From Naematelia aurantialba (lineage: Eukaryota; Basidiomycota; Tremellomycetes; Tremellales; Naemateliaceae): a stretch of 64,000 nucleotides of DNA. The notes below the pieces were generated by a model that worked only from the letters and a program-made list of their open reading frames with translations, was not told the origin of the DNA and made no database searches. The translations under genes were made by a program, and so were the position numbers. The stretch lies in assembly GCA_021527695.1 (NCBI GenBank), contig JAKFAO010000008.1, forward strand, positions 992,001 through 1,056,000. Direction: 5' to 3'. Positions 39,464 to 63,829 of this stretch are shown here, piece by piece (within the stretch, counting starts at the first letter, position 1; every line of letters begins with the position of its first letter).

Positions 39464-40993
39464 ATGACCTCTAACGATTGGTTCAATTCTCTTCCCCTCG
39501 AGGCGATAGAAGAATCACTGGCGCAGTTGCCGCACACGCAACGCCATCGAAATCGAGTGTTCTTACATGCCGAATTTGGGGGTGCTCCATCCGACAGCAT
39601 GCCAAACTCGTTTACTGTATCGGCTGGGTGGCCGCAGAGCCACGATTCCATCGTTCGCACAAACCCTCGCCATGACGGTGGGGGCATGAGCTTGGATGCC
39701 TGGCCAAATGCGCGTCGTGAGGAAGCATCGGTGGCACTGCCACGAGACTCCCAACTGGCTCCTGAATCGAATCCATATACTGAGATTGGGAGCGTATACT
39801 CTGACTCATGGTTTCAGGCCACCCCAGCTTCAGAGACTCAGACACCGTCGGTTGACGTGCCACTTAATGTGCTACCGCCTTACAGCCTGCCCCAAGAGAC
39901 GACCCTTTATGAGGAGCCTACGAGTGGAGGTTCTGACGGTTGGCTGGTTTCGGCTCAGCCACAAGGACGATGGCCGTCGCCCCACATGGGAGCCCAATGG
40001 AGCAATGAACGGTGCAGTTTCGAAGCTCCTTATCTGCCTCTGCCCATCATCAACTCACAACCAGATTGGGGAAGAATGCCGCCAGCGCAAGGCGGACAGA
40101 CGACGAACTCGTACGCGTACAATATGGTCCAGCATAGAGAGCGCCCTCACCACAGTGTCTGTTCGCGTGGTAACGACCACCTCATGTTCCCTCCGGCTCC
40201 GCACGTCCAGACATCTGCCTGGGAATATGCCAATAGTTGGAGTGGTCTCTTGGCACCAAACACCTCATCCCACTCGGTGTTGGGGTCAAGTGCTGGCGTA
40301 CCTCCCCCACAGGATGCCCCCACAAACCCCCTCAATCTCGAGCCCAAGTTGAGCATATTTCAACGACGCGTCGAGACCAATCGGTTGTCCACGGTCAATC
40401 CAATCACTGTTCAGCAAGCCCCGACTGTTCCTATAGCCCACGTCCCAGCCTCCAGTAATGCTGGTGAGCTGGTGCAGCACTCGAGTTCCGTTAGCAGCTC
40501 CTTTCAGATACAGACGCAGAGGTCGTCCTATGGGAGTGCCTTTCGCGGTGGGAGATCGACCAATCCTCCTCTCCCGCCATTGCCCCGGGGCATACGCCAG
40601 ACGAACACTAGCCTGACGGTGGTCCGCTGCTCGGTGCAAAACTGCTCCGTTCAGAGAACGGTCCGCAGCCTGCGGGTACACGGATTCCCGGTTGGGTTCT
40701 CCTCTCAGCTCCGGTATGCCTGCAGTCTCAGCCACTTCAGATCACTTGTGGCTGCAGAGTTTCAGCTAGAATTGACAAAAGACCAGACTATAAGACGATC
40801 CAAGGAGATCCATGACCTGGCTAAAACGTACCGTGTTGTGCCTCTATGTGCGCAATGTCCTCTCGAACGTCAAGTTCCTTCGGCGGACTTTCCTGGAATC
40901 ATAAAGCTCTACCGTGGCATGCGGATCTGCCAAGATGGTAGTCTTGCTTGCCGCTCTCACACGACCAGCTCTTTGCAGCGAAGGGTGACGTGA
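39464..40993 (+). CDS. Array gene 1: Cys/His-module protein, complete module
   Basis: I do not recognise a named family. The gene is intronless and encodes 509 residues. Residues 1 to about 380 are low-complexity (Ser, Pro, Gln, Asn) with scattered Trp-Pro motifs and probably disordered. The C-terminal module has all eight ligands of the shared pattern: C389-x4-C394, C420-x3-H424, C462-x2-C465 and C496-x2-H499, with two further conserved blocks, FSSQLRYACSLSHF and LAKTYRVVPLCAQC. The spacing suggests two zinc sites, but that is inference. The same pattern appears with variations in six or seven following plus-strand genes. A disordered N-terminus with a compact Cys/His end would suit a nucleic-acid-binding or scaffold protein. 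There is no signal peptide or membrane segment. The start ATG is preceded by a TTTAAA box at about -107. Confidence 0.8.
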   Translation: MTSNDWFNSLPLEAIEESLAQLPHTQRHRNRVFLHAEFGGAPSDSMPNSFTVSAGWPQSHDSIVRTNPRHDGGGMSLDAWPNARREEASVALPRDSQLAPESNPYTEIGSVYSDSWFQATPASETQTPSVDVPLNVLPPYSLPQETTLYEEPTSGGSDGWLVSAQPQGRWPSPHMGAQWSNERCSFEAPYLPLPIINSQPDWGRMPPAQGGQTTNSYAYNMVQHRERPHHSVCSRGNDHLMFPPAPHVQTSAWEYANSWSGLLAPNTSSHSVLGSSAGVPPPQDAPTNPLNLEPKLSIFQRRVETNRLSTVNPITVQQAPTVPIAHVPASSNAGELVQHSSSVSSSFQIQTQRSSYGSAFRGGRSTNPPLPPLPRGIRQTNTSLTVVRCSVQNCSVQRTVRSLRVHGFPVGFSSQLRYACSLSHFRSLVAAEFQLELTKDQTIRRSKEIHDLAKTYRVVPLCAQCPLERQVPSADFPGIIKLYRGMRICQDGSLACRSHTTSSLQRRVT

Positions 40994-41623
40994 GACTTTG
41001 AGGAGTCTGCAAGCAAGGCGAAAGTACGATTGACCAACATCGGAGGTGAATCGCATAGCGTATGGAATACTTGAAGGAGCAGTAGCATGGTACGGAGGAT
41101 ACAATTTCCCTTTGTGGGTGCAGCGCCCGGTCCGTGCGTACAGTAGCAGGTACTAGGAGATACAGTATCAGCTAGAGCCCTTAGGTACATGGGTCTACTA
41201 CGAGCCGTACACGTTTTCCTATAGCACATTCCATGTGGGCATATAAAATTGGTCGGGACATGCAGTCCCTCGTCTGTAAGCAGTATGCACTGGACAAGCC
41301 TACAGTCTTCATCGAACGTATCATTCATACGTCTCATCTGCCCTAGAGCTATTGTATAAGGACGCCCCTGCGCGGAGAGAGTGAACGAGAATGCACCTTT
41401 AGAAGCCTCAACCTCCAGAGAGCTCCCAATCCAAGTCCACACCAAGAGCACCAAACGCCTTCTAGGGACTTCGAAGGAGTCGAGCCTGGAGGTATGAAGC
41501 TTGGGTAAAGGCAGCCGCCCAGAAGGCCAGTCCAAGCGCTCACTCTGCTATATCCACTCAGGCGACTATCTCAGCTCACTGTAAATCGCTTCTCAATTTG
41601 AATTAATTCTCCTCCCATTCAGA
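40994..41623. other. Gene-free interval between array genes 1 and 2
   Basis: It is expected to hold a terminator and a promoter. No coding segment could be supported; a TATATCC string lies about 76 bp before the next ATG. Confidence 0.45.
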
Positions 41624-42586
41624 ATGAGCGAGTCATGCTCCTTGGACCAATCCGAGTGGCGAGCTTTGGACGCTAAGACGGTCGGAGTGCCCCGCAGCTG
41701 GAGCCTGGCCGGCTCGAAAACTGTCTTACCTGCCTATCCTGAGCCGCACTCAGCACGCCCCAGTGTCACTGTGGACACGTATGATGCCGCTCAAGGCCGT
41801 CTCCGCAGAGCTCACACTGATTCCCCCTTCTCCAATTGTCCAAGGTCTCGAAGCATCAATTCGCCTGTTAGTGTCTCAGCACAGCTGTCAACCGTTGAGG
41901 AGGGCACCATCCCAGAAGCAGACTACGGTGCAGAGAAGGACACAAGTCAGCAGCAAGATGTCTCTCGGCAATATTGGGACGGTATTTCAGCCCTTCGGGA
42001 ACGAGATTCGCAGCCATCGTCCCCTCCGGCCACAATCTCTGCTTACATCGATGACTCCAGTGGCAGCTGGAAGCCCACACAATGCAAGGATAATTCGGAT
42101 GCGCAGCTGAATTCGGATGCGCAGCTGGTGGCTAAGACTGGCGGGAAGTCCCCTGCCCAACCAACAACCGAGAGGGAGGTCTGGAAAATGAACGGCAAAG
42201 GCAAAGGCAAAGGCCGTGGCCGGATCCATTCAGTGCGAGTCAACTGCTCGGTTCCAGGGGGCACCTTTAGCAAACTGGTCAAGTCGACCCAGATGTACGG
42301 ATATCGGGTAGGGTATGATGCCACGCTCCGTTATGCCTGTGGTGCTCGGCACGTCCAGACTCTAATCAGCGAAGAGTTTGTCATGGCATTCAGTGGGACC
42401 GATAGGGCGATTGACAACGCCAGGGCAGTGCGGGCTTTGGCGAGGAAGCACAAAGTCGCGGTGTTATGTTCGCGTGGTCCCTATACCAGCGGCATACCCA
42501 CAGACGACCACTCGACAATCATCAAGATCGAACGTGGAATGCGATGCGGGCCTGACGGCCGTCTTCACTGCTCGTGGCACAAATAA
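41624..42586 (+). CDS. Array gene 2: Cys/His-module protein, partly degenerate
   Basis: An intronless gene of 320 residues with a disordered, Ser-rich N-terminus and a basic GKGKGKGRGRIHSVR segment just before the module. The module is clearly related to array gene 1: GYDATLRYACGARHVQTL aligns with FSSQLRYACSLSHFRSL, ALARKHKVAVLC with LAKTYRVVPLC, and IIKIERGMRCGPDGRLHCSWH with IIKLYRGMRICQDGSLACRSH. Two ligands are missing: the second Cys of the C-x4-C pair (CSVPGG) and the second Cys of the C-x2-C pair (CSRG). If the module binds metal, one site should be weakened here. A short direct repeat, AATTCGGATGCGCAGCTG, is present at about 42093-42128. This is the closest sister of array gene 1, which it follows by 630 bp. 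Confidence 0.78.
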   Translation: MSESCSLDQSEWRALDAKTVGVPRSWSLAGSKTVLPAYPEPHSARPSVTVDTYDAAQGRLRRAHTDSPFSNCPRSRSINSPVSVSAQLSTVEEGTIPEADYGAEKDTSQQQDVSRQYWDGISALRERDSQPSSPPATISAYIDDSSGSWKPTQCKDNSDAQLNSDAQLVAKTGGKSPAQPTTEREVWKMNGKGKGKGRGRIHSVRVNCSVPGGTFSKLVKSTQMYGYRVGYDATLRYACGARHVQTLISEEFVMAFSGTDRAIDNARAVRALARKHKVAVLCSRGPYTSGIPTDDHSTIIKIERGMRCGPDGRLHCSWHK

Positions 42587-43478
42587 GGTAGGCACGTACG
42601 AGAATGGGGGCTGGCGGCTTGGGTGAGAAGAGCGTGCTTGAGGCGTGCCCGTCCCTGGATCTGTAGACGAGATGCTTGCAGGGATTCCTCCCCGTATTAT
42701 ATGCAGATATTTCATGCATGTGAATACATACGGGTATAGATACAGCAAGCGATGCGTGTAGGCTGTTCGTGGGGTCTTTAAGAGAGGTCAAGCACTCCTA
42801 CTGCATTTGACCGTTCGAGGATCTTCGACACGGACCTGCAAACAGCTGAGAAGATGGAACGTAACACCCCGGTGATACACGCAGAGCTTGAGAGTTACTT
42901 TCGACTACGTGTCGAGTGAGAGTTACTTTTGACAACATACAGTGCTGGGAACTTGGTTAGTGGCAAATTCGTGGGCTTGTTTGCTTTGCATCCTGCTGAC
43001 TAGACTGTGAGGCTACGTGTTGGGGACCCGCTTCCCCACCTCTGCTTGCCGCACCCGACACCAAGTAGAGCACTTAGGAAGGCGCCTTTCATTGCGCGTC
43101 ATCCGGCTTTCATACGAAAGCTCCTTCCTCGACCCAGGCTTGAGGCGAAACATCTTGTCCGACTGCAAGCTGGACGATGTCTTCCAAAGCTCACTTTGTC
43201 CTCAGTGACAGAGTCTACGAATCTGACATCATACAAGGACACGAGAGAGCATTGGCGAGAAGCCGCGAGTAGTCGCCTCTGGAGTCCCGCCACACAGTGG
43301 TTCGAGTTATACGGGGCTACCAGTCAAAGGAAGAGATTTGTGCATTCAAATCTCTTCCACTGGCCTTCGAAATCATTTGGCAAGCAACGTAGTGGAGGGT
43401 TAACGAACGAGCTTTCACCTTCAAGCTCGCACGCATCCTGCATAATATTCGCTCGAATCTGTCTTGAGACCTCCAAAG
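42587..43478. other. Gene-free interval between array genes 2 and 3
   Basis: No gene is supported. The repeated string GAGAGTTACTTTCGAC/GAGAGTTACTTTTGAC occurs at about 42890-42930. Confidence 0.4.
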
Positions 43479-44714
43479 ATGAATTCCAAAGGACGGCAGA
43501 TCGTTCAAGCGACTTCTCCGAGTTGGCAGGAATCGTTGGACTACGTGACATTAGACCAGGAGAGGCAGGAAGCAAAACGTGCTAGGAATCCTCGGTTCTT
43601 TGACGAGCTTTTCGAGAAGACTCTCGAGGAGGCAAAACGTTGCCAGTTTGCGGGGACCATGGGAGTGGCTGGTCAGTATGTCCTTCCTGACTGGACAACG
43701 ACAACTCCAGCGTCGGAAACGCAGATAGGCGAATCCTTTCGGCAACGAGACGCAATGACTGTAAAGCCTCAGATCTCACCATTCCAGACTTCGGTCGCAG
43801 ATGACCACCAGAGCTCGAGGCAGGTTCAAAGAAGCGAGCTCGACATCAAGCCTCAAATGCAGCAGTCCGGCTACGTTAGTGGAGAACAGGATCCACCGTT
43901 CACAAAGATGGAGGCCTCACAATCAAATGGTTCTACTTCAGCGTTCAACACCCCTTCAAACGAGCGCAACCGACGAACATCCACGGCAACTCACTCGCAG
44001 CACCGATTTCACCCGTATCCCACGTCCTTAGGGACGTCAGCGTCAAAGGGACTCGGCACCCAACAGCCCCACCAAGCTAGCTTAGAGAGTTCACGATCCA
44101 GTCACAGCCGTGTCAAAGTCGAAGATGATGGCGGCAACATGCATACGCAATGGTCCCTGTCTCAAGGACACGCAAATGGCATGAGGACGGGAACTTCAGC
44201 TCAACACAGCACCGATCAGCAGATAGCTCAGCAAGCCAACTTGCTTCGTGCTCGAAGCAACAGCGGCGGCCTCAAAATGGAAACTGTAAGCGATGCCATG
44301 AGTCTTCAGAAACACCCTTCGTCCCGACTCCGGAACAGGACCGGGGATCACTTGGGGGAGGGACAGGCAAAGCGGCTGCATGGACCCATGAATAATCTCG
44401 TCCGTCCGCCTGAGGGATCTACAGCAGCATTTGGTGTGACTCGTGCTTCTGATGTCTCTGGGACCTCAGCTGTGTCAGTAACAATGCTGCCAGCTGCATC
44501 CTTATTGGGATTTCGGCGCGTGAGTTCGAACCAGGACGGAACCAAATCGATTGCGAGTTGTTGTGATTGTGAGCCAGATTCCAGTACGAGGCTTATCAGT
44601 TGGAACGATGTCAGTGCAGGGGCAAAGAAGTTGACTGAAAACTCCTGGGTATGCGCTCGGCATGCCGCGTTTCGCGGCACCGAGGACGTGCAGGCGAAGC
44701 GGGAGCCTGAGTAG
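43479..44714 (+). CDS. Array gene 3: low-complexity protein with a partial Cys/His end
   Basis: An intronless gene of 411 residues starting at ATG 43479; the reading frame is open slightly upstream but has no earlier ATG. The first 60 residues are charged and helical (LDYVTLDQERQEAKRARNPR, FDELFEKTLEEAKRC). The middle 300 are Ser/Gln/Thr-rich and disordered. Only the second half of the array module can be matched: SIASCCDCEPDSS resembles the C-x2-C segment, and NSWVCARHAAF resembles the final C-x2-H. The first C-x4-C and C-x3-H pairs are absent. Membership in the array family is therefore tentative, based on that match, the position, the shared strand, the lack of introns and the similar overall layout. 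Confidence 0.65.
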   Translation: MNSKGRQIVQATSPSWQESLDYVTLDQERQEAKRARNPRFFDELFEKTLEEAKRCQFAGTMGVAGQYVLPDWTTTTPASETQIGESFRQRDAMTVKPQISPFQTSVADDHQSSRQVQRSELDIKPQMQQSGYVSGEQDPPFTKMEASQSNGSTSAFNTPSNERNRRTSTATHSQHRFHPYPTSLGTSASKGLGTQQPHQASLESSRSSHSRVKVEDDGGNMHTQWSLSQGHANGMRTGTSAQHSTDQQIAQQANLLRARSNSGGLKMETVSDAMSLQKHPSSRLRNRTGDHLGEGQAKRLHGPMNNLVRPPEGSTAAFGVTRASDVSGTSAVSVTMLPAASLLGFRRVSSNQDGTKSIASCCDCEPDSSTRLISWNDVSAGAKKLTENSWVCARHAAFRGTEDVQAKREPE

Positions 44715-45198
44715 CTCGGCTATACTTCCGTGGCGATATGAGCAACGGGAAGCTGGAGGCCACGTCGTAACGCTTGCACGTCTGTATCTTCCTGAACGAC
44801 TTCGAAGTCAGTACTTTGTTCCTTCCTAATGTTAACACGGAACAAATGCAAAAGAGAGTGTCGGTGGCCATAGTTTTCCTCGTTTTCAACGACCTTAGGT
44901 CCGGCCATCCACCCAGAGCGGTGGTCCGTGCGACAGTACCACTTGGTTATAACTCTCGGAACTTCCGGGCTCCAGATGACTTTCAGTTGCGACTATCGGC
45001 ACCCCTTCGACCACTGCACAAAGGTGACGGTAAGGCTTCTTACACTGGAAGTTTTTTGCAGGTAGCTGTCGTGAGAGTCAAGCCCCATGATACCTGTACT
45101 GTGAGACTACACTTTCGGACAAAGGACACTTTAAAGTCAGACGGGTGAAACGGCGGTGTCGACCACCATTGCCTTCCCATCATCTCCCCGCCGGTAGG
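44715..45198. other. Gene-free interval between array genes 3 and 4
   Basis: No coding region. It includes the ACACTTTAAAG box listed separately. Confidence 0.45.
45126..45136 (+). promoter_or_regulatory. ACACTTTAAAG box upstream of array gene 4
   Basis: Identical over 11 bp to the string at 39353-39363. It lies 73 bp before ATG 45199 and 160 bp before the alternative ATG 45286. Confidence 0.3.
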
Positions 45199-47238
45199 AT
45201 GAACGAAGTCATGCTCCTCTCATACCTAGTCAAGCTTCTGTCTTTTGCACAGTCTCACCCCAGTTATTTGACACCTACAAGCACCATGAACTACAGCCAG
45301 TCGGCTAACAACATCAACTGGGACCCATTCCCTTGGGCAAAGGCTGATATCGAGGCCCTCCGTCTTGCCGCAAGTCAAGACGCAAGCACTGCGGAAGATT
45401 ATCAGGTTGAATCCACCTCACACAGCGGCAACGCTGCCAGTTATTTTGAGCCTCCTGCCATTACTACAAGACCCAACACTGTTCTAGACGACGGCTCACT
45501 CGCTACTGGAGGGAGCGCTCTAAATTCGGCATTGCTGAATTTCAAAGAAGTGGCGAATTATGCGCATTCGCGCCAGCGCAGGTTACAGCAGGACGATCAA
45601 ACAGGCGAACCGCATTCTTCTCCCATGCATTCTGAACATCTGCAAGCTCTATTATTCGGAGGGCAGAATGAGGCAGCCCAATTTGCGGATGACAGTGCAC
45701 CAGATCCTCTTGGCTACGTCAACATCCAGCCATCTGGCTCGCAATATTCTCCTCAGCAGCTCCTGCCTGAGCGTCAGGGTCAGAACAGCCTATACCACCC
45801 ATATTCTTGGTGGCTCAACCATCCGTTGGTTGCGGGAGACAATTATTCCCATTTGCAAGTCGGTCTTCCTAGACCGGAACCTCAAATGCCTAACGATCTA
45901 CATGGAACGGCCGGAGCGTCGCTCTCCTCCGAGGAGAGGGAATATACTGACTGGCAGTGGGATCCCAACTTTTCCGAGCTACAACGCGACCTACAACTGT
46001 ATCCTACCCCATCCAGCTCAATGGGGAGTATGAACCAACAGAGCGTCGCAGACTTGTCATCTCCGCTGCGTTGGACGCCAGCGTCAGAACGGCCTTTGAG
46101 AGACGAGGAAGGTGAACCTCGCAACATGGCTTCTCCCACCTCAAACTATCCGGGCAGCTCAAACGATTTGCCGAGGGACGACCCAGTGACGCTTCACAAT
46201 GTCGATGAAGGGCCACCCCCAGACACTTCTCCAAATCAGACAACAAATAATCGGGTGCTCCTGCTTGAGGGTCCCTCATGGCGTCCACGTGGTTTAGTTG
46301 ACGTTCTCGCCAGCTGCTCTGCCACAGGCTGTCCTTCCAAGAGATTCGTCTCGTTGACGAACATCAACTCCTGGGCGAGCTTCAGCCCCAAACACATACA
46401 GGAGCTTGTCGAAAAGATTCGTCCAGTATGCAGCTTGAAGTGCTTCAACGAGCTCATAACCGGCGCTGCACCTCTCAGGGTGGGCAAAGGTGGGCGCCTA
46501 ACTGGGAAGAGTAAAGCAGAGGAACTGGCAAAGTCGCACAACATCGTTTGCATGTGCATGTTGTGCGGTACGACGTCAGCAACCGTTTCAAAGTTCATCC
46601 CGCTTCGGCGGCAAGCGCCAGTTCTGACAGTGAACGGAATATTTAAATGCTACGACCACAAGTCGGAGGCAACACGCGATCTTTCCGAAGAAATTCCTTC
46701 GACTCCAGGCTCCTTGCCTGCTGCCGTTCTGGAAACTCTTAGGGCGCAGTACACGTCTAAATCACATTACAACGGTCGTTTTAGAGCGCGCCTTTCTGCT
46801 GCGCCTCGTTTTAGGGAGCCCCTTTCCGCTGGGCTTAGCGACTCCGAAGACGTCCGGTTGGTTTGCTCAGTGGATCGCTGCAGCCGGGGGATCTTGATTC
46901 GCCAGACTGACCTGCCAAATCCGTCGCGACCGCTAGACATCAAGGGCGTCTGCAGCATACAACACTTCAACGAGCAAGCGCAACTGTCTGTCGCTCGTCG
47001 GTCCTCTGGAAACTCGCATTTCAGCATGGCAGAAATTGAGCAGATGCGTGAGATGGCAGGTACGCACCGCTTGCATCCCATGTGCATGCTGTGCAGCACC
47101 TATGGTCCACATGCAAAGTCACGGCTATGTCCCATAGACGACAAGTTGCTATGCACCCAAGACGGCTATTTTGGATGCTCGCTTCATAGCCTTACACTAG
47201 TAGGCGCAATAACCAACCTAGACGATTTCGTGGGTTAA
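45199..47238 (+). CDS. Array gene 4: protein with two Cys/His modules
   Basis: An intronless gene of 679 residues from ATG 45199; a second in-frame ATG at 45286 (MNYSQSANNINWDPFPW) may be the true start, since the first 29 residues look like leader. After about 350 disordered residues come two copies of the array module. The first (about 46306-46670) has C-x4-C (CSATGC), C-x3-C in place of C-x3-H (CSLKC), C-x2-C (CMLC) and C-x2-H (CYDH). The second (about 46855-47190) has CSVDRC, CSIQH, CMLC and CSLH, all eight positions intact. The paired sequences NIVCMCMLCGTTSATVS and RLHPMCMLCSTYGPHAK make the internal duplication plain. This gene is the best template for defining the module, since it offers an internal comparison. 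Function is unknown. Confidence 0.8.
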   Translation: MNEVMLLSYLVKLLSFAQSHPSYLTPTSTMNYSQSANNINWDPFPWAKADIEALRLAASQDASTAEDYQVESTSHSGNAASYFEPPAITTRPNTVLDDGSLATGGSALNSALLNFKEVANYAHSRQRRLQQDDQTGEPHSSPMHSEHLQALLFGGQNEAAQFADDSAPDPLGYVNIQPSGSQYSPQQLLPERQGQNSLYHPYSWWLNHPLVAGDNYSHLQVGLPRPEPQMPNDLHGTAGASLSSEEREYTDWQWDPNFSELQRDLQLYPTPSSSMGSMNQQSVADLSSPLRWTPASERPLRDEEGEPRNMASPTSNYPGSSNDLPRDDPVTLHNVDEGPPPDTSPNQTTNNRVLLLEGPSWRPRGLVDVLASCSATGCPSKRFVSLTNINSWASFSPKHIQELVEKIRPVCSLKCFNELITGAAPLRVGKGGRLTGKSKAEELAKSHNIVCMCMLCGTTSATVSKFIPLRRQAPVLTVNGIFKCYDHKSEATRDLSEEIPSTPGSLPAAVLETLRAQYTSKSHYNGRFRARLSAAPRFREPLSAGLSDSEDVRLVCSVDRCSRGILIRQTDLPNPSRPLDIKGVCSIQHFNEQAQLSVARRSSGNSHFSMAEIEQMREMAGTHRLHPMCMLCSTYGPHAKSRLCPIDDKLLCTQDGYFGCSLHSLTLVGAITNLDDFVG

Positions 47239-49098: not shown

Positions 49099-50703
49099 AT
49101 GCCGCCAAAAGCTTCAGTTGCCCACCAACCTTCCGCCTCTCCTCCGCCTCCGGGCTCGTCCGACGCGCAGGACCTGTTGATCATCCAGGACTTCATGGAC
49201 ACGCTCGACCAGATACCCCCCGAGCTCACACGCGTGCACAGTGATCTGAATGAGCTTGGTGCTGTGTTGTACTGTGAGTTATCTCTTCCTCTCTTAGCTT
49301 GATTTCTCCCTCCCTTCTCACTGCGGAGACATCTTACTGACCGACACCCACAGCAACGTTGCAGAACCTCGAGGTCAAGCTCAATACACTCATTAACTGG
49401 GTACAGGATCCATCCATCGGCGTCGAACGAAGATTCCAGCTGCTGCAGGAGATCGCGGAGGAGGCGGCGCGATACAAGCTCGGTGGTGATGACAAGATCC
49501 GTGTAGCCGGCGGCGCTTGCGACGGGGTGAGTCATCCCTGCAATCCAAATGCTTGCCAGCTAATCTTGCAGATCATGGCGCACCAACGGCATATTTCTAA
49601 TCTTCTGACTGCATCGACCCTACTTCAGGCGGGCCCGCTGTCGCCGTACACCCAGTCTCTTACTCTCGCCAACATACCGCCTACATCCAATACCCGACGT
49701 GGAGCGATGCGAGCGAATAATTCTCCTTTCACTGGCAAGGGGTACTCGGGAACCGCTGGAGGTGGCGCATTAGGGCTGGAAGGCAGGGAACATCCCACTC
49801 CCACCAAAAAGAAAAAGTCTCGGGTGCAGCAGTTGGGTGCAGGGCGAGACGATGACGACGTGTCCAGCGTCGGTGGAGATCGGAAGAAGGCACCGGTGAA
49901 AAAGAAGCGGTGAGCTCCCATTCTTCTCGCTCATGCCGATGTTAGAGCTGATAAAGTAGAAGTACTAACAATCGCGCACCTTCCCCCACGGAATCAACGG
50001 GTTCAGGATATGGACAAGCACCCAAATCTAATCTGCCAATGACGGATAGGCAGCGAGCGGCAGCGGTGGCCAAACAACAGGCCAAGGATAAGAAGCCAGA
50101 TGATGACAGTGAGGAAGAAGATGAGGACCGCCGCAACGGTCAGGCGATGCGTGTCTCTCCGTCCGCCGAGTCAAATGCACGCGAGGGCAATGGAGAAGTT
50201 CGCCAGGGTATGCCGTTTGTCTCACGACATCTGTTCCTGACGCTAACGATTGCAGGTCGAGTGAGTCGCGTGCGTGCGGGTACCAAGCGCAGCCGCGCAG
50301 AAGACGACGAGGACGACGAGGACGAAGATGAGCCAGAAGATGACGTCAAACCTCCCACCAAACGCACGAACAGTAACAAGAAGACAGCCGCTCAGCCGGA
50401 CGAGGTGCCGCTCGATCACGAGGATCCATCGGGGGGTGATGGCGAAAGGCTGTACTGCACTTGTCAGGCGGTCAGCTACGGCGAGATGATAGGTTGTGAT
50501 AACGAAGACTGCGAGATCGAATGGGTCCGTGATCATCTTCAACTCATCCAAGATGGATTAAGAGCTGATGGATGTAGTTTCACTTGGCATGCCTTGGGCT
50601 CGACAAGACCCCCGAGGGAACGTGGTACTGCCCCTACTGCATTGACAAGTTCAGCAAGGTTCCAAAGAAGAAGGCACCGCCAAAGTCGAAAGCCAGGAAG
50701 TGA
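49099..50703 (+). CDS. ING-family PHD-finger protein (Yng2-like), six exons
   Basis: Predicted chromatin reader and subunit of a histone acetyltransferase complex such as NuA4. Exons are 49099-49273, 49354-49526, 49572-49909, 49960-50207, 50256-50524 and 50578-50703, 442 residues. The N-terminal ING helical domain is seen in [21 protein letters not shown] and the following coiled part ([28 protein letters not shown]). A long Lys/Arg/Asp/Glu-rich middle has several probable nuclear-localisation clusters ([15 protein letters not shown]). The C-terminal PHD finger has the complete Cys4-His-Cys3 set across the last splice: [18 protein letters not shown] and WYCPYC, with [17 protein letters not shown] giving the H3K4me3-pocket residues expected of ING proteins. 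The basic tail [15 protein letters not shown] is polybasic as in ING family members. It is divergent from the GH128 gene upstream and convergent with the SANT-like gene at 50864. Confidence 0.93.
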
Positions 50704-50863
50704 CGCAGCCAGGAGCGGAAGCAGTGATGTTGGGATTCAAGGGAGCACGGCGCTACTTTTGCGGACTGTTCTGGCAGCAGTCCTGGGACTTGACTTCGCT
50801 GCGCTTATGTACTTCACCCAACGATGACTAAGCAGCCCATTTTCAAGGACCATAGACCCTACT

Positions 50864-54170: not shown

Positions 54171-55451
54171 ATGTACCAGGAATACACTTCGGGAGCAGAG
54201 GAATGGAACATGGAGTACATCTTGCAAGGCCAGGAGCTACGAGCACCCTGGGACCGCAACTTTCACTCCGCCGATGAGGTTTCCTACGCCTCAAGTCCTC
54301 ATCGAGAAGACACGTTTGCCACCGAGAACCCGTTCCAGCGAGGTACGGCTTCGTCCGCCGCAATGCCACTTGAGCGGCTCAATGATGTCCCCCTGGGTGG
54401 GCCTTATCAAGAAGTGATGCAACAGCCAATGGGAGGGTCTCTGTATGAACATGGACCTCGTGCCTTCATCAGCGAAGCTGTGGACCATCCACCGTGGCCG
54501 TACACCTGGACTGAAGGAACGTTGTTGGGGGGCGAAAATCCTCCCGGCCGAGACGCCCTGCCAGCCGGCCCAGAAAGGCAACAGAGAGCCGGTGTGCAAA
54601 CGCCCCCTTCCCTGAAGACAGTCTCTCACCAGCCTGCAAGTTCTGGGGAGCTGAGTTTCTTGTACACGGGAATTGAGCAACAAAACCATCATGGTCGTCG
54701 GGGAGCTCCCAGTCCTTCGATGTCGTCTACGAGCCAGCTTGGAGTCCGTTCTCTGACTGGAACCGGGTCTATCTTACAAGGCAATGAGCGAGACTCTCTG
54801 GGTGATATGGGACTCCCCTTGGCTGGGGGAAACATGGGGGATTCCAACAATGCGGTCGGTGCTTGGACCGGGTGGGAAAACAATGAAGCCGCCCACATGA
54901 TTCCACACTATGAAGAACACTCTTTACCCTCGACGTCTTCGGGCACTCCTGTGAGTCAGATTGCACAAAGTGAGATTGACGCAGAGGGTTCCACAATTGA
55001 ACCTAGCCTCTCGGATGACCAGGCTTCCAGGAGACTAGCCGCCGCCATGAATTACATCCACAGTATCCCCATCAAGTGCAGCTGGAAAAGTTGCGAGCGG
55101 AAATTCCTGGTCAAGAGTCAAAATGTACGATGCCACACCTCGTTTCCCTTGAGGGTGTGTTCATGGGAGCATTTCGCCATGCAGATGGAGGAGGACATCA
55201 AGATCACAAGAACCGGACGTCTATCTGATACGTCCTTACCTACAGTGATACGTGTATCTCGTGAACGAAACATCGTGGGAATATGTTCTGGGTGCAAACA
55301 CGGGATTGACTGGCACGGCCATGCCGTGGGCCATCTGTTCGCTTTCACAGTAAACTCTTATGAGGTGAGACTGCCCGGCTGGGACCTTGGGAGGCTCGTC
55401 TGCTCTACGACGCACACGGCCCGAGGCGCTCCACTGACATTCGCCGACTAA
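54171..55451 (+). CDS. Array gene 5: Cys/His-module protein, complete module
   Basis: An intronless gene of 426 residues. About 290 disordered residues (Ser/Gly/Pro/Glu) lead to the C-terminal module at about 55069-55425: CSWKSC (C-x4-C), CSWEH (C-x3-H), CSGC (C-x2-C) and CSTTH (C-x3-H, one residue longer than in the others). Helper positions also match, including VSRERNIVGICSGC against LAKTYRVVPLCAQC of gene 1. An insert rich in His and Gly (HGIDWHGHAVGHLFAF) lies between the third and fourth ligand pairs; the same HLFAxxxxxYEV string appears in array gene 6, so genes 5 and 6 are sisters. The gene ends 1.06 kb before gene 6. Confidence 0.8.
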   Translation: MYQEYTSGAEEWNMEYILQGQELRAPWDRNFHSADEVSYASSPHREDTFATENPFQRGTASSAAMPLERLNDVPLGGPYQEVMQQPMGGSLYEHGPRAFISEAVDHPPWPYTWTEGTLLGGENPPGRDALPAGPERQQRAGVQTPPSLKTVSHQPASSGELSFLYTGIEQQNHHGRRGAPSPSMSSTSQLGVRSLTGTGSILQGNERDSLGDMGLPLAGGNMGDSNNAVGAWTGWENNEAAHMIPHYEEHSLPSTSSGTPVSQIAQSEIDAEGSTIEPSLSDDQASRRLAAAMNYIHSIPIKCSWKSCERKFLVKSQNVRCHTSFPLRVCSWEHFAMQMEEDIKITRTGRLSDTSLPTVIRVSRERNIVGICSGCKHGIDWHGHAVGHLFAFTVNSYEVRLPGWDLGRLVCSTTHTARGAPLTFAD

Positions 55452-56510
55452 TCGAGCAGCCCTCCTGACCTCACACTTGTGCGCCTGTGCATCATGACCA
55501 GACAAAAATGAATTGGAGCACCATGAGATCATGCTGTCTGTGTAATGGAACGTTAAACGTCTATGACATGATATTATCGCGATATGCAATGCTGTTTGGA
55601 GTCCGCTTGCCACTTTCAACCAAATAGGCTAGATTCAAGATAAGGAGGACCCTCAACCTGCAACTGTACTCTACAAAAACGGTTCTCAGATCCATACAGG
55701 TTTCTCACACCTACCCTAAGGCTGATCCAGGAATTCCCCGGAATGGAGTCAAAGTGAGCAAAGAATTCGTGATACCCTCTGCCCCACATGTTGCCAGGTG
55801 GTCCGTGCGCTGACTCACTGGGGCTCGCCACGTCCACTCTCGGGCACAAGGTCGGGCGTGATACGACAGTACACAGAGCAAAGCATCCCATCTCCCTGAC
55901 ATTGCATCAACCTTTGAGCCGAGGTTCAAAATGTCTAGGAAGGCCACTTGCTTCGTGGAATCTTCAGGTGGCGACATATACGCCTCAACCCAAACAACCC
56001 GCCGTTCAACATCGTTCCGTGAATTCGACTTTCTTCAGCTTCAGCGGCACCCATGTCATATTCAGAAGACAGCCTTCAGAATCTATCCTCGAACGAGCCA
56101 TGAGGTTTCTCAGATTGACCGAGTCTAGCGCATGAGTGCCATTCTCTAGTCCGTGCGCTTCCTATTACTCCATGGGGCAACGTCCGCGTCGTGTGGCTGG
56201 GAAGTACAGAGGGTGAATAAGAGCTGGGAAGAATGCACCTTTCACAGAGGTTTTCCTGGGGTCTTCCTACTATGACGTAGGGATACATCCTCGTAGTTCA
56301 GCATCGCGAGGCCAATTGCACGAAGCCTCTACGAAGGCCTACACCTCCACTCGCTCTCGTTGCACCTCAGGCGTCTACCTTTTTATGCACGGTCTCCATA
56401 CAACTATTTAAGGGCACCCAACTTCTAACAAACGACTCGAAAACACCCAGACCCTCCGTATTGTGCTCTCGTTATTGCTCGAGGCAACATCCCGAGCTCT
56501 TCACAGTTGC
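55452..56510. other. 1.06-kb interval between array genes 5 and 6
   Basis: No coding segment convinced me on either strand. A TATTTAAG box lies about 106 bp before the start of gene 6. Confidence 0.4.
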
Positions 56511-57535
56511 ATGATGAGCAGTACCTCCATGTTCCCCGGACAGTACAGCCCTATGTGCTCCTTAGGAGCGGGCGATTGCTCCCACTCATACATCGATTGG
56601 TGAGGTCGCTACATATGAAAGGGGTTAAGTGAACGCTGAAGCGCAATTATAGGCTGAACAATGTTCTGGACGCAGAGGTGGAGACAGGTGACGTCCAACA
56701 TATTTCGACTACCACCGAGCAACAACCTGTGTATCAGGATAGCAAAGCTTCGAATGACATCTCACCCGCTGCGACGCAAGATAGAGGGCTCAGTGTGAAC
56801 GCTTACTACTCGACAGAGATCCAACCCGGAGTCCGTAGCCTATCCCCAGCTCCTGTCTTTCAGGATATTCACCGAAGTTCAGGGACCGCGATTCAATCTG
56901 GTGCCGATGGCGTCGAGACAGGTGGATCCCAGATGAGCATCTTTTCCGACAGTCTACCCAGGGAGCATCCAACGTCATACACAGCAACCTCATTATCCAC
57001 ACCCTCAACCCCGCCTCCCTCATCAACGATGGCGACAAAGCCTACTTCTCCACGGCCCTTCCGCCTGGAGGACGTCCAACTCTCCATCAGGCGAAAGGGT
57101 GGGCCGTTGGTTCGCGTCAGGTCCAGTACAGGCCTTTGCCAGCGCACATTTCGGGTCCCAATACACAAGGTCAGAGGATATCCACTAACTGGTTCCTCAC
57201 TTGCCACTTGTTGGGACGACGTGCAACGGCTTACCAAGGTGGATGTTGGGAGTATGAGACGGTTACATGTCGAGACCCCATGGAGGTTGGGGACCTCGCG
57301 GATGACGGTTGTCAAGGCTGTGCAGAAACACAAAGTCGTCGGAGTGTGTACACAATGCAAGAAGACCAGATCAGGTGAAGATATCAATGGACATCTGTTC
57401 GCCATCAATGCAACCACCTACGAAGTCGAGGACGAATTCGGCAAGACTTTCGGATGCTATCGAGAAGCAAAACGACTCGCTTCCAGAGGAGCGGCCGTCG
57501 GAACTCGAGCCGGATCCACCTCAGAACCGGTATAG
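56511..57535 (+). CDS. Array gene 6: Cys/His-module protein with one intron, eroded ligands
   Basis: Exons 56511-56599 and 56653-57535 encode 323 residues. The downstream frame has no early ATG, and the upstream exon (MMSSTSMFPGQYSP ... SYIDW) joins it in the right phase through a GTGAGG/TATAG intron of 53 nt, so this is the only clear array member with an intron. The module keeps a Cys near the start (STGLCQRTF), CWDDV instead of C-x3-H, a good C-x2-C (CTQC), and CYRE instead of C-x2-H. Four of eight ligand positions are lost. The string HLFAINATTYEV matches HLFAFTVNSYEV of gene 5, showing close kinship. Metal binding is doubtful here. The disordered N-terminus resembles the others. Confidence 0.72.
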
Positions 57536-58196
57536 CTTAGGTCCTGGGTTGGTGGTCAGTCTCCAGGAAGGGATGGTGGTTGTGCTTTTGATCGCATGCA
57601 GAAAATACATGAGTTCTCTTCCCAGTGAGCCGCAACGCTGAAGCCTTATGCTTAAGATCTTAGCAATCCGGCCAGGAACGCACAGCTCATATTCAGAACG
57701 GTTAGTTGGACTGATTCATGCAACTGAAAGGCTGTGGCACTCAGTATGATCTGAGTGATTGATGAGATCGTAGAATGATGGAGTTGCGCGCTCATGTTCT
57801 CGATTTGCCACTACCGAGAGCACTCGGAAGTGCTCGGCAAATGCGGCGATTTGGGATTTGGTGGACTGCCACGCTGCTTCGAATGACACCAACTCACCAA
57901 CGACAGCGGACGCACAAACAGAGAGACAGCTCAAGCTGGTCGTAGTACGAGAATGGAAGCATGGGTCAAAGCGAACTCAGGATAGGCGAAGCCTCAGTGT
58001 CCGCCTTCCAAGGCGCTCCACAGCAGCAAGTCTAGGATCACCTCTTATCAGCGTTTCGAAGGCCTGAAGGATCCTCCGGCCTCCCACCAGACCTCAACCA
58101 GACAGGTTGAAAAGAGGATCCCTCCTAGGCTGCTTGTGTTGCAACCCTTTGCATTACTAACACAACCATCACTGTCCCCCGCACCGACACCTACAG
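57536..58196. other. Gene-free interval between array genes 6 and 7
   Basis: No gene is supported; presumed 3' end of gene 6 and promoter of gene 7. Confidence 0.45.
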
Positions 58197-59618
58197 ATGC
58201 CTGATTTCTGGATACCAACTCGAGCTCCGTCTCCCCATAACTCGGGGCAGAGGACAGAGAGCCCAGAACTGATATACAATTCAGAGACGGAAAATACATC
58301 CGAGAGAACCTTCAGCAATGTGAATACCATGTACCAGGAACTATTCGGAGGCTGTGGGAGCGCACCAATGGGCACTAATCTTCCCAAGATCTGCGATACC
58401 ACCGCGGAGTACCGTGCCGGCGTCGAGCCTAGTTTTTCTGGGGTTGGTTATTGCGCGTCTGCAAAGAGCGTTGCTATGCCGACGTCAAATGTTGACAATC
58501 AAGCTGGCTCCTGGCCTAGTGGGCCTGGCCATACCCAGAGCACAACCACCCAGAATGGTGCTGCTCCGAAAACAGCCACTTACTTGATCGGCAACCTTGG
58601 CTCGTCGGGAGTCCACTGGAACCAGCCAACATGGATTGCACCGGCTGAAAATACCAAATATGCCTCCTGGAGAGAGCCTTGGAGTCAGCCAGCCGTGCCG
58701 GGAGACATCTCGTTCTCCCATACCGCCATGATTGATGAAACCGTTCCGGATCCTTCCTCCCCTTTAGATCGCTCCCCTGCACTGATAGGAAGCAATTACA
58801 CCCAGCACGCTCCTTCCGATATGGACAACCCCGCCGGTACCAAGTCCAAGCCTTCTGAACTTGGCCAATCCTCCGAGGCTGACAATGGAGATACACGCCA
58901 CCGGTCGTCCAGTCCCGAGGTGGTTTACTTGGGGCGAAAGTCACCGCCGCCTCCTGATACACAATCTAATTCCATCACATTGAAATCCCGTCGCCAAAGC
59001 GGTGATTCACAAAATACCAGCAAGACTTCCAGAAAGAGAAAATTATCAACAGTCAACTCAGAGTCCTCTTCCGCAGCAGAGAAGCAGGACTCTACTCCCT
59101 CGGTTTCAGAGCGCGTTGGCCCTCTCCAGGTGAAGCACGCTCGCGCCGTGACATGCGCAGCTGCCGACTGTAATGAGAGCATGTGGCTCGAGTGCTTCAC
59201 GAGGCATGATAAGACCAAGGGTACCGTGGTCTGTTCCTTGAAGAGCCTCCAGAGCTACATGCTGGAGAAGACTGGGACGACCATTACGCCAGATAGTCGT
59301 GGGAGATTCACAATTCAGTCCCGGGCGGCGGTGAGGAACCAGCAAGTCCTGCTGTTTTGTCCGTACATTGGAGACGTGAGAACGGAAGGTGGCCTGCGTA
59401 GGGGGAATGCCTACACGATGTCGGAATTGCTGACAGCCACTGCATACGGCGAGTTCGAAATGAAGAAAGCCTTGCAGAGGAATACCATCGTACACCAGGA
59501 GAAACTCAATGCGGGGCAGTACTTTCATCGCGCACAAACACAACCGGTACCGGGATCATCTTCTCGCAACGGCAGTGCAGCTACTGCACGGATCCCAGGC
59601 CCACAGGACCTATTGTAA
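58197..59618 (+). CDS. Array gene 7: Cys/His-module protein, second half eroded
   Basis: An intronless gene of 473 residues with a long disordered N-terminus (Ser/Asn/Thr/Pro) and a basic KSRRQSGDSQNTSKTSRKRK segment, a probable nuclear-localisation signal, about 20 residues before the module. The module keeps CAAADC (C-x4-C) and VVCSLKS, where Ser replaces His, then QVLLFCPYIGD with only the first Cys of C-x2-C, and lacks the final C-x2-H. The surrounding hydrophobic pattern is maintained, which argues for a fold that persists after losing its metal ligands, or for relaxed selection. It extends about 50 residues beyond the module. Confidence 0.72.
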   Translation: MPDFWIPTRAPSPHNSGQRTESPELIYNSETENTSERTFSNVNTMYQELFGGCGSAPMGTNLPKICDTTAEYRAGVEPSFSGVGYCASAKSVAMPTSNVDNQAGSWPSGPGHTQSTTTQNGAAPKTATYLIGNLGSSGVHWNQPTWIAPAENTKYASWREPWSQPAVPGDISFSHTAMIDETVPDPSSPLDRSPALIGSNYTQHAPSDMDNPAGTKSKPSELGQSSEADNGDTRHRSSSPEVVYLGRKSPPPPDTQSNSITLKSRRQSGDSQNTSKTSRKRKLSTVNSESSSAAEKQDSTPSVSERVGPLQVKHARAVTCAAADCNESMWLECFTRHDKTKGTVVCSLKSLQSYMLEKTGTTITPDSRGRFTIQSRAAVRNQQVLLFCPYIGDVRTEGGLRRGNAYTMSELLTATAYGEFEMKKALQRNTIVHQEKLNAGQYFHRAQTQPVPGSSSRNGSAATARIPGPQDLL

Positions 59619-60029
59619 GTATGTAACCTGGTCTTTGGAAGTATTGTGGAATGCAGCCCCACTTCCATGCTAAGTTTTGTCGAGCTGTCACGGCTGATTT
59701 TGACTGCGTGACGACCGTCGTCAAGCTGCCTGTTCCATGAGTCCCACAGGCGGTACTTTGGCTGGCCATGGCTTTGACGCGATTTTTCTTGCACCTTGAA
59801 ATGTAGCTCCTGATTCTGGTTGCTGGTCGGTTTCCCCGACGATGCAAAGCTGTTGCGACTACGTCGAACTACATGAATGGTGCTGAGACGCCCAGGTCAC
59901 ACACGCCACACGCCACACGCGCAATTCCCGCGGCAATTGACGCCTTCGCCACCAATTCCTGGCAAAGCGATTCTTGACTTTTTTTGGTCTTTATAGCAAG
60001 GTCTCATTCCAGCTGTGCCCAAGCATACA
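59619..60029. other. Intergenic region upstream of eIF3g
   Basis: About 410 bp that should hold the eIF3g promoter. A CACACGCCACACGC repeat lies at about 59900-59920. No gene. Confidence 0.5.
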
Positions 60030-61285
60030 ATGTCCACAACGAAGACGTGAGCATAAAGATGAGGGATCAAGCGCACACGTATTGACGCAGTGATATAACA
60101 GAATAAAGGAAGACTGGGCTGCCGACGAGGAGCTTGGTGAATCACTCTAGACTGTGGTTAGCTTGTCCTCTTGCTGATGTATTCAGGAGACGAGCTTCCT
60201 CCGACAACCGAGACGACCGTCGATGGCATCACAACCATTGTGAGCTGGAAATTGAATGAGCATGACCAGAAAGTCAAGGTGAGATCTTGCGAGCTGGAGA
60301 TATAGAATCCCGCTGAGTCTATCAGGTCACTCGGCGCGTTCGTCGGAGATTACAGAGTCAGCTCGTCTCCCATACCGTCGCGGAGCGAAAACACCTCCCC
60401 AAGTGAGCCACCACACACTCCTATGATGAAGCATCTGCTGAAGTATTCAAGGTTCGGCTTGGACAAGGGCAAGCCTTCAGGACCTGACCGCACGACCACT
60501 ATCGTTGGCGAAAACTTGTATTTCAAAATCTCTGCCATTGCGAACAAGGTCAGACATGCCACCTGCAAGGCGGGATCATACTGATTGTTACAGGCTGTGG
60601 AGGTAGAGCAGAAAGAGGATGCTACGGCGAAGGCAACTGGAGGAAAAGCGCTGCTCTGTCGGAAATGCAAGGGGAATCACTATACCGCGAAATGCCCTTT
60701 CAAAGATCAGCTAGCGGCGATTGACAGCGTGGATGCCGAGGGAATGGATGAGGAGCAGGGCTTGGACAAGGCGGGTGGTCTGCAAGCGAAGGGGATGGGT
60801 GGAGCAGGGGGCAAATACGTGCCACCGTACGTTCACGTCTTTCCCCATGTCTGAAACAGTCTAATTTCTGCAGGGGCCCACGAGGCGGCGGCGCGGGCGA
60901 GAGCATGTATCGGCCCCGAGACGAATACCCCACGCTCAGGATTACTTCGCTGTCGTATGACGCGGAAGACGAAGACCTCGAGGCGTTGTTCAGTCCTTTT
61001 GGCCGGGTCATGCGCGCAAATGTGGTCAGAGATCGCGAGACGCGGGAAAGCAGAGGATTGGGCTTTGTGTCATTCGAGCGGAAACAGGATGCGGAAAAGG
61101 CGATGCAGAAGATGAATGGATTCGGTGCGTTTTCAAACTTGGGTCCCCGACTAGGGAGAATTAGACTGATTCAGGCAGGCTACGACTCGCTCATCCTCAG
61201 CGTCAGCTGGTCAAGTGAGTGTCTGTCTGCAATGATTTCGACCGTGTTGCTGATAGTCCCAGTGCCCCGAGAACCACGGCCGTGA
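60030..61285 (+). CDS. TIF35: Translation initiation factor eIF3 subunit G, nine exons
   Basis: RNA-binding subunit of eIF3, acting in scanning and reinitiation. Exons are 60030-60046, 60102-60136, 60187-60278, 60326-60402, 60452-60548, 60594-60826, 60874-61124, 61179-61214 and 61263-61285, giving 286 residues, the usual length. The N-terminus reads MSTTKTIKEDWAADEELGDELPPTTETT, fixing the two short first exons. A family block, TTIVGENLYFKISAIANK, is followed by the zinc-knuckle-like CRKCKGNHYTAKCPF. A Gly-rich linker leads to the RRM, with RNP2-like LRITSLSYD and RNP1 RGLGFVSF, ending LILSVSWSMPREPRP. The acceptor of exon 3 could also be 60189, changing one residue. It is flanked by array genes 7 and 8 on the same strand but is unrelated to them. 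Confidence 0.95.
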
Positions 61286-62095
61286 TTGCCTTGGACGCCA
61301 TTGTTCACCGTTAGGACATGCAGCCTGTATTATCTTATTATCGTCCACACGTTTGCTGCCGCTGTCATGAGTCCCTCGATTGTACTGACAGCGGAGATCC
61401 GGATGGAAGCTGGGAGTCTCTGGCTCCAGGCGCTCTCTGGTCATGTCTCGGAACCATACGGGAGAGTACATTGTTTCTTACCATTGCAAGAGGAAGGAGA
61501 GAGAGATCAATTCGCCATCAGATGCCCGTGTTCACGTCCCGCCTGGCGGAAGTTGACAGCAAGGCCATGAAATTCACAAACACCCGCCGCACTGCTCCAG
61601 CCAGGTTGGCGCTGGTGAAATGCGAAGCCTCGGAGAGCATGGCGTGCTCAATATGCTTACGGGATCGCCAAGACCCACCAGCTCAGGTCATTAACGCTTC
61701 TCATGATGCAAGTGCAATAAAGGGTACAATTTGCCCCGATGAGTGAGCAATGACGTGCAGAAGGCATTTGAATCTCTTGTTCGCCAAGCTACTTACTAGT
61801 GACCTTGGTTCTTAGAAGGCGGAGGTTTGACAGGCCGCAGTCGCATTCGTATCACAACGGATGGAAGCACTGGCGCCCTAAATAGGGCCCAGAAGGACCT
61901 GGAAACGGCACCGCCTTGAGGAATTAGAGGCCATCCCAGGTTCCTGGTTTGGATGGGTCGTAGACAAATGCTGACTGTCCCGGCAACAGCTCTTGTAAGA
62001 GACTTCTCACCGAGGCGTCAGTCACCGAACAATGCTTTACATAAAACCCCTCCCCTCTATGCCCTTCATCACCTAAAGCAGAGACAGCTCACAAG
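61286..62095. other. Gene-free interval
   Basis: No convincing frame with a recognisable product. A TTTACATAAAA string lies 50 to 60 bp before the start of array gene 8. Confidence 0.4.
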
Positions 62096-63829
62096 ATGTC
62101 CGACTTTCCTGAGTCCGCAATTTCCAGAAGCGACGCCCCACCCGGGACGGAGTGGACAGAATTTCCGCTCGACTTCCTTGGGATGTCGAATGTGTACGGT
62201 GAAGTTTACCCCAACTTTGGAGAGCCAGAATCCTCTGCAGTCCAGAGGCTACCCACGCAGTCACGGAACCACTTGATAGGGCCCGCTCCATATACCCCCC
62301 TTCATGGGCCCCTGGATTGGCCGGAGAGGGTGGACTTTCCACAATCAGCCAACAAATTACATGACATTCCTGGTGGCGAATTCTTGCCAGGTGTCGATTT
62401 CAATGTACTTTCCGGCGAGTTTCAAAGACTCTCCCAACATGTCGACTCTATGCCTGGTTACAGGCAACCGGATATTGAAGAGAAGTCAGCGGCCCTATGG
62501 GGACATGAGATTTTCCGACACCTGGATGGAGCGGAGGGTCGACTAGACTCACACTCCGAAGAGCAAATCACTCAAGAGCTCTTATCATTCCCCCTGACAC
62601 CTCAAAACAACAATCTAGTGTCTTACAATGAGGTCGATTTGGTGAATGATTTGTTGAGAATGGCTCGCGACGGCTCCGACACGCTCAGTGGGCTCTTGTC
62701 AATCCAATGTGGCAGTGAACCCCTGCCACAATCGGACTATTTCGACGGACCGTTCATGAGGGATTGCTCAGGCAGTAGCCGTTTGTCAGATGGTAACCGT
62801 ACCGGGCCAAATACGACTTCTGATAGCTTGGTGAACGGCTCTGAGACCCCGGGTGAGTTGGGAGAGCTTGCCTGGTTCAATAATAGGCAGCAGATGGTAG
62901 ACCTGGGAACAGACAGAACGATAGAATCTGCTGGGGTCATTACCAAGGAGGGTTCTGGATCCGTGGGCCCATCGTTGGGGGTTTCCACTTCTGGCCAATC
63001 CCCTCAGGGCGAGGGCAAGAAGACTGCTAAGGTGTCTGTCTCAAATCAGCGAAAGCGCAGTCGAGTTGACGAAGCACCGACGGACCGCATGGGTTCAGAC
63101 TCATTGTCGCTCCAGGCAGAGTCTACATCCCTTACAGATGAGTCCCCAAGCCACACGCCACGCGTCAGAAAGGTCTTCAGACGTGATCGGGAGGCGGCAT
63201 TGCCGTGCGCCACAGATGTTAGTATCACCACCATGGGCAGCTCCCGCTTAATAGCGGCTCTCGCCCGAATCCAAGGACCCGATGTCTCCCTTGGACTAAT
63301 AGAGACGAAGAAGTTCGTCAGGGTGCTGCGCCAGTGTGAGCGGCCTTCTGACGGATGTCGCTTGTCCAAGCCTACATTGGTTCAGGCATCAAGCATCATC
63401 CTCAGGAGACTGAACGACAAGCAAGTAACCATATGTCAGTACTGCCTGCCACAGACTGCCGAGCCGAGCAATCCCACTACAACATTGAACGGCAAGCCCT
63501 ACAAGGCGGGAAAGACGGCACCATGGATATGGAAAACCCCTGACGAGCCACAGGCCGAAGTGGTGATGATATGTCTGTTCGAGTACGAGAAACAGATATC
63601 AGAGGATCCCGATACGGATGAAGTACCGCACCTTGCGCTGCAGACCCTCAATTCCAAGTATGGGGTCAGATGCTCTAGCGCTTGGGCCCATTGTTCAGAC
63701 TCGACCCCTAGGGTGTACTTTAGCCAAAATGGCTTGGCAAACGCTCTGCAGACAAGAGCAGCTCGATCCAAGTCGCATGCTGCTGTGCTGACAAGCGACG
63801 GAGGGCCCAGCAATGACAGATCAAATTGA
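62096..63829 (+). CDS. Array gene 8: most divergent Cys/His-module protein
   Basis: An intronless gene of 577 residues. The first 350 residues are disordered, acidic and Ser-rich, ending in basic patches (QRKRSRVDE and KVFRRDREAALPC). The Cys-bearing end (about 63205-63700) shows QVTICQYC, which matches the C-x2-C segment of the family (RVVPLCAQC), and the pairs CERPSDGC and RCSSAWAHC with different spacing. The alignment to the other array genes is otherwise weak, so it may be a diverged family member or another Cys-rich protein of similar build. Support for membership is the position at the end of the array, the same strand, no introns, the disordered N-terminus and the C-x2-C block. Confidence 0.65.
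   Translation: MSDFPESAISRSDAPPGTEWTEFPLDFLGMSNVYGEVYPNFGEPESSAVQRLPTQSRNHLIGPAPYTPLHGPLDWPERVDFPQSANKLHDIPGGEFLPGVDFNVLSGEFQRLSQHVDSMPGYRQPDIEEKSAALWGHEIFRHLDGAEGRLDSHSEEQITQELLSFPLTPQNNNLVSYNEVDLVNDLLRMARDGSDTLSGLLSIQCGSEPLPQSDYFDGPFMRDCSGSSRLSDGNRTGPNTTSDSLVNGSETPGELGELAWFNNRQQMVDLGTDRTIESAGVITKEGSGSVGPSLGVSTSGQSPQGEGKKTAKVSVSNQRKRSRVDEAPTDRMGSDSLSLQAESTSLTDESPSHTPRVRKVFRRDREAALPCATDVSITTMGSSRLIAALARIQGPDVSLGLIETKKFVRVLRQCERPSDGCRLSKPTLVQASSIILRRLNDKQVTICQYCLPQTAEPSNPTTTLNGKPYKAGKTAPWIWKTPDEPQAEVVMICLFEYEKQISEDPDTDEVPHLALQTLNSKYGVRCSSAWAHCSDSTPRVYFSQNGLANALQTRAARSKSHAAVLTSDGGPSNDRSN

Follow-up and report, generated by a model that had tools for sequence, protein, structure and literature searches.

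A same-strand gene cluster in Naematelia aurantialba containing two families of proteins with Cys-rich C-terminal domains

Organization of the gene cluster

The window analyzed here, the whole 64,000-nucleotide stretch C14:992001-1056000, belongs to a genome of 20,997,016 bp in 15 contigs, which was likewise searched. ORF calling and translation of the window placed eight open reading frames on the plus strand (Table 1), in agreement with the initial annotation, which had described eight plus-strand genes, seven of them without an intron. The frame is indeed unbroken in seven of the eight, g6 being the exception: its open frame extends upstream of the first ATG, its start had formerly been set at 56933, and the gene probably possesses a short first exon from 56511 that is joined in frame across a predicted 53-nt intron. 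For g4 the ATG at 45286 is preferred, which yields a protein of 650 aa. Comparable same-strand ORFs run on past the window end to approximately 69.8 kb. The cluster contains two protein families, A and B, which lie on one strand and combine a low-complexity N-terminus with a Cys-rich C-terminal domain.

Exons of eIF3g were also found inside the cluster, and a control protein was assembled from them by eye. The GC content between 38 and 70 kb is 0.530-0.546 per 4-kb bin; since the bins at 146-162 kb are also at 0.519-0.556, nothing is inferred from the low GC of the cluster.

Table 1. Genes, modules and predicted intron of the cluster (window positions unless a contig or locus is named; held-out E, value obtained with a profile built without the gene)
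Feature	Position	Strand	Length (aa)	Family	C-terminal module or domain	Held-out E	Remarks
g1	39464..40993	+	509	A	~40610-40990	4.5e-17	8/8 ligands
g2	41624..42586	+	320	A	~42218-42583	9.2e-14	
g3	43479..44714	+	411	candidate member	near 44559-44663		C-x2-C ... C-x2-H half-module only
g4	45199..47238	+	679 from first ATG	A		2.7e-12	
g4 modules	~46288-46674 and ~46834-47208	+		A			two modules in one protein
g5	54171..55451	+	426	A	~55059-55433	8e-9	
g6	56511..57535	+		A	~57104-57487	0.0096	predicted exons 56511-56599 and 56653-57535
g6 predicted intron	56600..56652	+					53 nt, GT-AG, in-frame junction
g7	58197..59618	+	473	candidate member	near 59154-59234		first-half-like C-x4-C and C-x3-H
g8	62096..63829	+	577	B	~63296-63715	2.3e-7	
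g9	C14:1112673-1113983			A		7.2e-9	~57 kb beyond window end; 8/8 ligands
g10	L010:2777-4093			B		3.3e-4	just beyond window end; g8 relative
g11	L010:4285-5760			B		1.5e-5	just beyond window end; g8 relative

Membership of families A and B

Family A, defined by the pattern C-x4-C / C-x3-H / C-x2-C / C-x2-H, comprises six genes with seven modules (one each in g1, g2, g5, g6 and g9, two in g4). A gene was assigned to it when it was recovered by a profile omitting that gene or when it was strongly linked to one member. Six modules (g1, g2, both of g4, g5 and g6) were combined into a profile, which was run against 2616 ORFs (six frames, 50 residues or more) from 214 kb of C14, the stretch covered by the profile searching; g9, which had no part in the training, was the sole extra ORF above the inclusion threshold (E 2.4e-8), followed below it by g7 (E 0.33). 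When the profile was rebuilt without each gene in turn and run over the same 2616 real ORFs, every held-out family A gene ranked directly behind the training ORFs (Table 1). The value for g6 does not rise above noise, since an unrelated ORF reached 0.0077 in the g1 fold, and g6 was placed in family A because of its link to g5 (blastp approximately 1e-7, shuffle z 15.4), its profile value being insufficient by itself.

The initial annotation had seen one shared module in all eight genes, which holds for g1, g2, g4, g5 and g6. With the seven-module profile and the same ORFs, g8 reached only E 380 and belongs to family B, and g7 (E 1.3) and g3 (E 23) carry half-modules and are of uncertain membership; the value of g7 ranges from 0.3 to 30 with the choice of training set. 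Scaled to the three disputed genes (x 3/2616), the seven-module values become approximately 0.0015 for g7, which rises to 0.034 in the worst fold, 0.026 for g3 and 0.44 for g8.

Furthermore, 12 C-terminal ends were compared in 66 pairs with 300 shuffles each. Thirteen pairs exceeded 300 of 300 shuffles, both when the sequences were fully shuffled and when Cys and His were held fixed. A z above 3 was obtained for 20 of the 66 pairs, namely 15 of the 21 within family A, all three within family B and two stray pairs, g4a-g10 and g3-g9 (z 5.6 for the latter, 3.5 with Cys and His fixed); at this level g6 was tied to g5 only and g7 to none. That the genes are unrelated ORFs which happen to carry Cys and His could hold for g3 and g7, where similarity is marginal; for g1, g2, g4, g5, g6 and g9 as well as for g8, g10 and g11 it is refuted by the untrained g9, the hold-outs and the shuffles with fixed Cys and His, and as an explanation of the cluster chance is extremely improbable.

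Family B was noticed by reading long ORFs past the window end and consists of g8, g10 and g11, which share 18 invariant columns. All three were recovered by profiles built without them, and unrelated ORFs scored 0.022 or weaker. A common origin of families A and B is unsupported: hhalign returned a probability of 0.2% (E 0.31), and the one cross pair, g4a-g10, is weak (z 3.5).

Composition of the proteins and predicted fold of the family A module

A long disordered N-terminus before a Cys-bearing end had been described for each gene. The contrast in Cys was confirmed in 11 proteins, g9 to g11 included, with 0-1.5 Cys per 100 residues in the N-terminus as compared to 3.8-6.0 in the C-terminus. 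The N-terminal bodies consist of P, S, T, Q, G, N, E, D, K and R to 64-72%, and the charge-hydropathy index puts the N-terminus on the disordered side in nine of the 11, g1 and g6 falling slightly on the ordered side. Moreover, 10 of the 11 proteins (4.9 expected, p 0.001) have a Trp among their first 32 residues; the test was made after the pattern had been noticed, with the second of the candidate start codons used for g4 and the predicted first exon included in g6. The net charge is +6 to +12 in five of the six A modules measured and 0 in g4 module 2, and the B domains have +1 to +4. Five of the 11 proteins contain simple nuclear-import patterns, whereas g1, g2, g4, g5, g9 and g11 have none.

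The ligands of g1 (389/394, 420/424, 462/465 and 496/499) follow the family pattern exactly and form the sites C-x4-C-x25-C-x3-H and C-x2-C-x30-C-x2-H. Module 2 of g4 likewise has the exact pattern and g5 a full set in which the last pair is C-x3-H, in accordance with the initial annotation, which had listed these three as complete; to them module 1 of g4 can be added, with a full set in which one His is swapped for Cys. It had described g6 and g7 as half-lost; the sole intact pair of g6 is C-x2-C, and g7 has only C-x4-C and C-x3-H. In g2 the second Cys is absent from both knuckles, and g3 has only C-x2-C ... C-x2-H. The ligand-losing copies g2 and g6 may be unable to bind two metals.

Two AlphaFold2 models, built on seven and six sequences (pLDDT 72 and 80), have the same element order of two strand-knuckle-helix units. 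In the first predicted unit a strand, the C-x4-C knuckle and further strands would be followed by C-x3-H at the start of a helix; in the second a helix, a strand, the C-x2-C knuckle and another strand would precede C-x2-H, again at a helix start. From the models we infer two putative zinc sites in series within two treble-clef-like units, the predicted zinc binding being based on the ligands and the models. Comparison of the models with solved structures gave no match, the very weak listings including a LIM complex (E 1.3) and the GATA3 DNA-binding domain (E 7.8). These two, neither of them significant, would speak for a cluster that belongs to a known class of zinc transcription factors but has diverged too far to be recognized, which we regard as highly doubtful.

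Searches for relatives and comparison with known systems

No Pfam-A family was matched over the curated cut-off by the eight full proteins, for which two sub-threshold matches were seen, both on g6, by g10, g11 and the three B domains, or by the seven A modules, that of g9 among them, for which the best E was 0.014 and each match concerned a single member. NCBIfam at E 1 matched none of nine proteins (all but g2 and g6). Among PDB sequences the best match of the A profile was an antibody chain (E 0.28), and the B profile had none at E 10. The initial annotation had recognized no named family, and these profile searches agree with it. In the literature, at the level of titles and abstract openings, no such family was found, and Naematelia and zinc finger were mentioned together once, for STEA.

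Neither the whole g1 protein nor its module matched anything at E 10 in a protein database searched with an exact-word filter (7486 and 30 candidates). The same database contains Tremellales, including at least one protein of Naematelia encephala, the nearest sequenced species, as seen with the eIF3g control, which was 88% identical to the N. encephala protein and 68% or lower to the others among the best 120 of 322 matches. For the N. encephala assembly a BUSCO completeness of 85.5% is given (PMC8777972). The result for g1 supports lineage restriction of this one gene, within the limits of the exact-word filter.

Nine single-protein queries over the genome gave two weak matches off C14, on C2 (E 0.085), where the frame resembles Zn2Cys6 by eye, and on C12 (E 0.043), in a stretch containing a stop; when three loci were searched with the family profiles, these two scored just E 0.35 and 1.3. 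The first-look filter was insensitive: full-length g8 missed g10 and g11, and the g8 domain found g11 and missed g10.

The earlier proposal of a lineage-specific, fast-evolving Cys/His family is supported in part, by the missing Pfam match over the cut-off, the missing database homologue of g1 and the 27-36% identity of A modules among the pairs listed, with the amendment that there are two families. Family A shares four Cys/His ligand pairs with RING and LIM domains. In these, the second and third ligand pairs are about 2-3 residues apart and thus adjacent, whereas those of g1 are separated by 37 residues (His424 to Cys462), so that g1 departs from the RING or LIM spacing; no Pfam match was obtained either. 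A GATA-type finger has the form C-x2-C-x17-18-C-x2-C, a spacing to which neither g1 site conforms. The zinc transcription factors of fungi (GATA, Zn2Cys6, C2H2) likewise carry a Cys/His module at one end of a long disordered remainder, and most A members share their basic domain. However, the ligand spacing of family A is different, no Pfam class is reached over the cut-off, and its models have two serial units with a helix-bearing linker.

Origin and possible function of the cluster

Within 38-70.5 kb no DNA similarity among the cluster copies was detected at E 1e-3. The strongest protein matches are mostly those of neighbors, namely g1-g2, g5-g6, the two g4 modules, and g8 with g10 and g11; g1-g4a and g1-g9 match strongly too. 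Among the seven modules, similarity decreases as distance grows (r -0.42, permutation p 0.034). Since neighbors are closest, similarity falls with distance and similarity at the DNA level is gone, an old local tandem duplication is indicated. With codons paired by protein alignment, similarity is lowest at the third position in 10 of the 11 listed pairs, the exception being g10-g11 (40 codons), a pattern that lends weak support to constraint at the protein level.

We propose that the cluster is a lineage-restricted, anciently tandem-duplicated set of probable nuclear regulators in this jelly fungus, a reading that we consider on balance probable. Following this, the Trp-bearing N-terminal segment would, judged by its composition alone, be an activation-type region that recruits the transcription machinery, the N-terminal body would be a flexible linker before the two-zinc domain, and this mostly basic predicted domain might contact DNA or chromatin, which is again suggested by composition. 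The genes would have multiplied by local duplication and then diverged, with ligands lost in some copies. In a similar way, lineage-restricted, regulator-like genes have been duplicated locally in the clustered zinc-finger families of animals, to which the present cluster is an analogy; it differs from them in its domain, in its few copies and in lacking finger arrays, apart from the module doubling in g4.

The neutral charge of g4 module 2, the low charge of the B domains and the restriction of import patterns to five of the 11 proteins count against a regulator. They would suit zinc-dependent adaptors for protein interaction with disordered linkers, for example in a ubiquitin ligase or as a scaffold, which do not bind DNA; interaction domains also often have four ligand pairs. 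The width of the gap in g1, unlike RING or LIM, the basic charge of five of the six measured A modules and the fact that no interaction domain of Pfam was found over the cut-off argue against such adaptors, which we judge unlikely.

Beyond the proposal of nuclear regulators, family A might represent a new two-zinc DNA-binding fold that was born within the Naematelia lineage and is diversifying by tandem duplication, the doubling in g4 and the ligand-losing copies being stages of this process. Family B would then be a second domain, either independently recruited or diverged beyond recognition, on the same type of Trp-bearing N-terminus. We regard this extended reading as rather unlikely. New regulator-type domains are rarely caught while still confined to one lineage. 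If the modules bind DNA, a cultivable, edible mycoparasite would have intact, doubled and degenerating copies next to each other, in which one could test how a DNA-binding domain arises and decays; if they do not, the cluster still provides two unclassified protein families that neither Pfam nor the PDB covers.

Tandem copies on the same strand, their strong divergence and the missing database homologue of g1 would also fit a fast-evolving system of genetic conflict or recognition (driver and suppressor, self-recognition or genome defence), in which diversification itself is selected. Toxin-like or membrane features were not seen, however, and the cluster lies away from the STE3 and homeodomain loci, which makes this explanation distinctly improbable. 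A mating-type reading had been prompted by two observations: the MatB region of N. sinensis has SHPRH among its listed genes (PMC13085929), and a RING/helicase-like frame, judged by eye, adjoins g9. This reading was rejected: STE3 was located on C3 and C1, and the best Homeobox_KN match on C11. One weak homeobox match lies on C14, approximately 0.44 Mb before the window.

Extent of the cluster and neighboring genes

Family B consists of g8, g10 and g11, of which the single-frame genes g10 and g11 lie past the window end and together span C14:1058777-1061760 on the contig that carries the window. Between g8 and g10, a low-complexity ORF was found that contains neither the family-A nor the family-B module and may be either a gene or a remnant. 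Farther along the contig, g9 was identified as a complete member of family A, the other group of Cys/His-bearing genes; the minus-strand frame adjoining it resembles, by eye, a RING/SNF2 helicase. The conserved multi-exon gene for eIF3g lies inside the cluster, and a further multi-exon gene has a PHD-like C-terminus reminiscent, by eye, of ING proteins, its largest frame giving no Pfam match. Elsewhere in the window, an uninterrupted reading frame 1093 residues long likewise had no Pfam match at E 0.1.

Positions of genes and open frames
Feature	Position	Strand
1093-residue frame	window 7750-11028	
PHD-like gene	window about 49200-50750	
eIF3g	window about 60200-61200	as cluster
321-codon ORF	L010:718-1680 (window 64718-65680, extrapolated)	+
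g10	L010:2777-4093	as cluster
g11	L010:4285-5760	as cluster
g9	L028:517-1800 = C14:1112700-1113983	as cluster
STE3-like, copy 1	C3:579987-580935	
STE3-like, copy 2	C1:363126-363964	

Base composition and STE3-like receptor genes

GC content at positions 38001-70000, in window numbering extended past the window end, was 0.530-0.546 (4-kb bins), the surroundings being mostly higher, and comparably low bins recurred at 146-162 kb. The genome possesses two separate STE3-like receptor genes, on contigs C3 and C1; the stop codon within one matched stretch of the C1 copy may be due to an intron.
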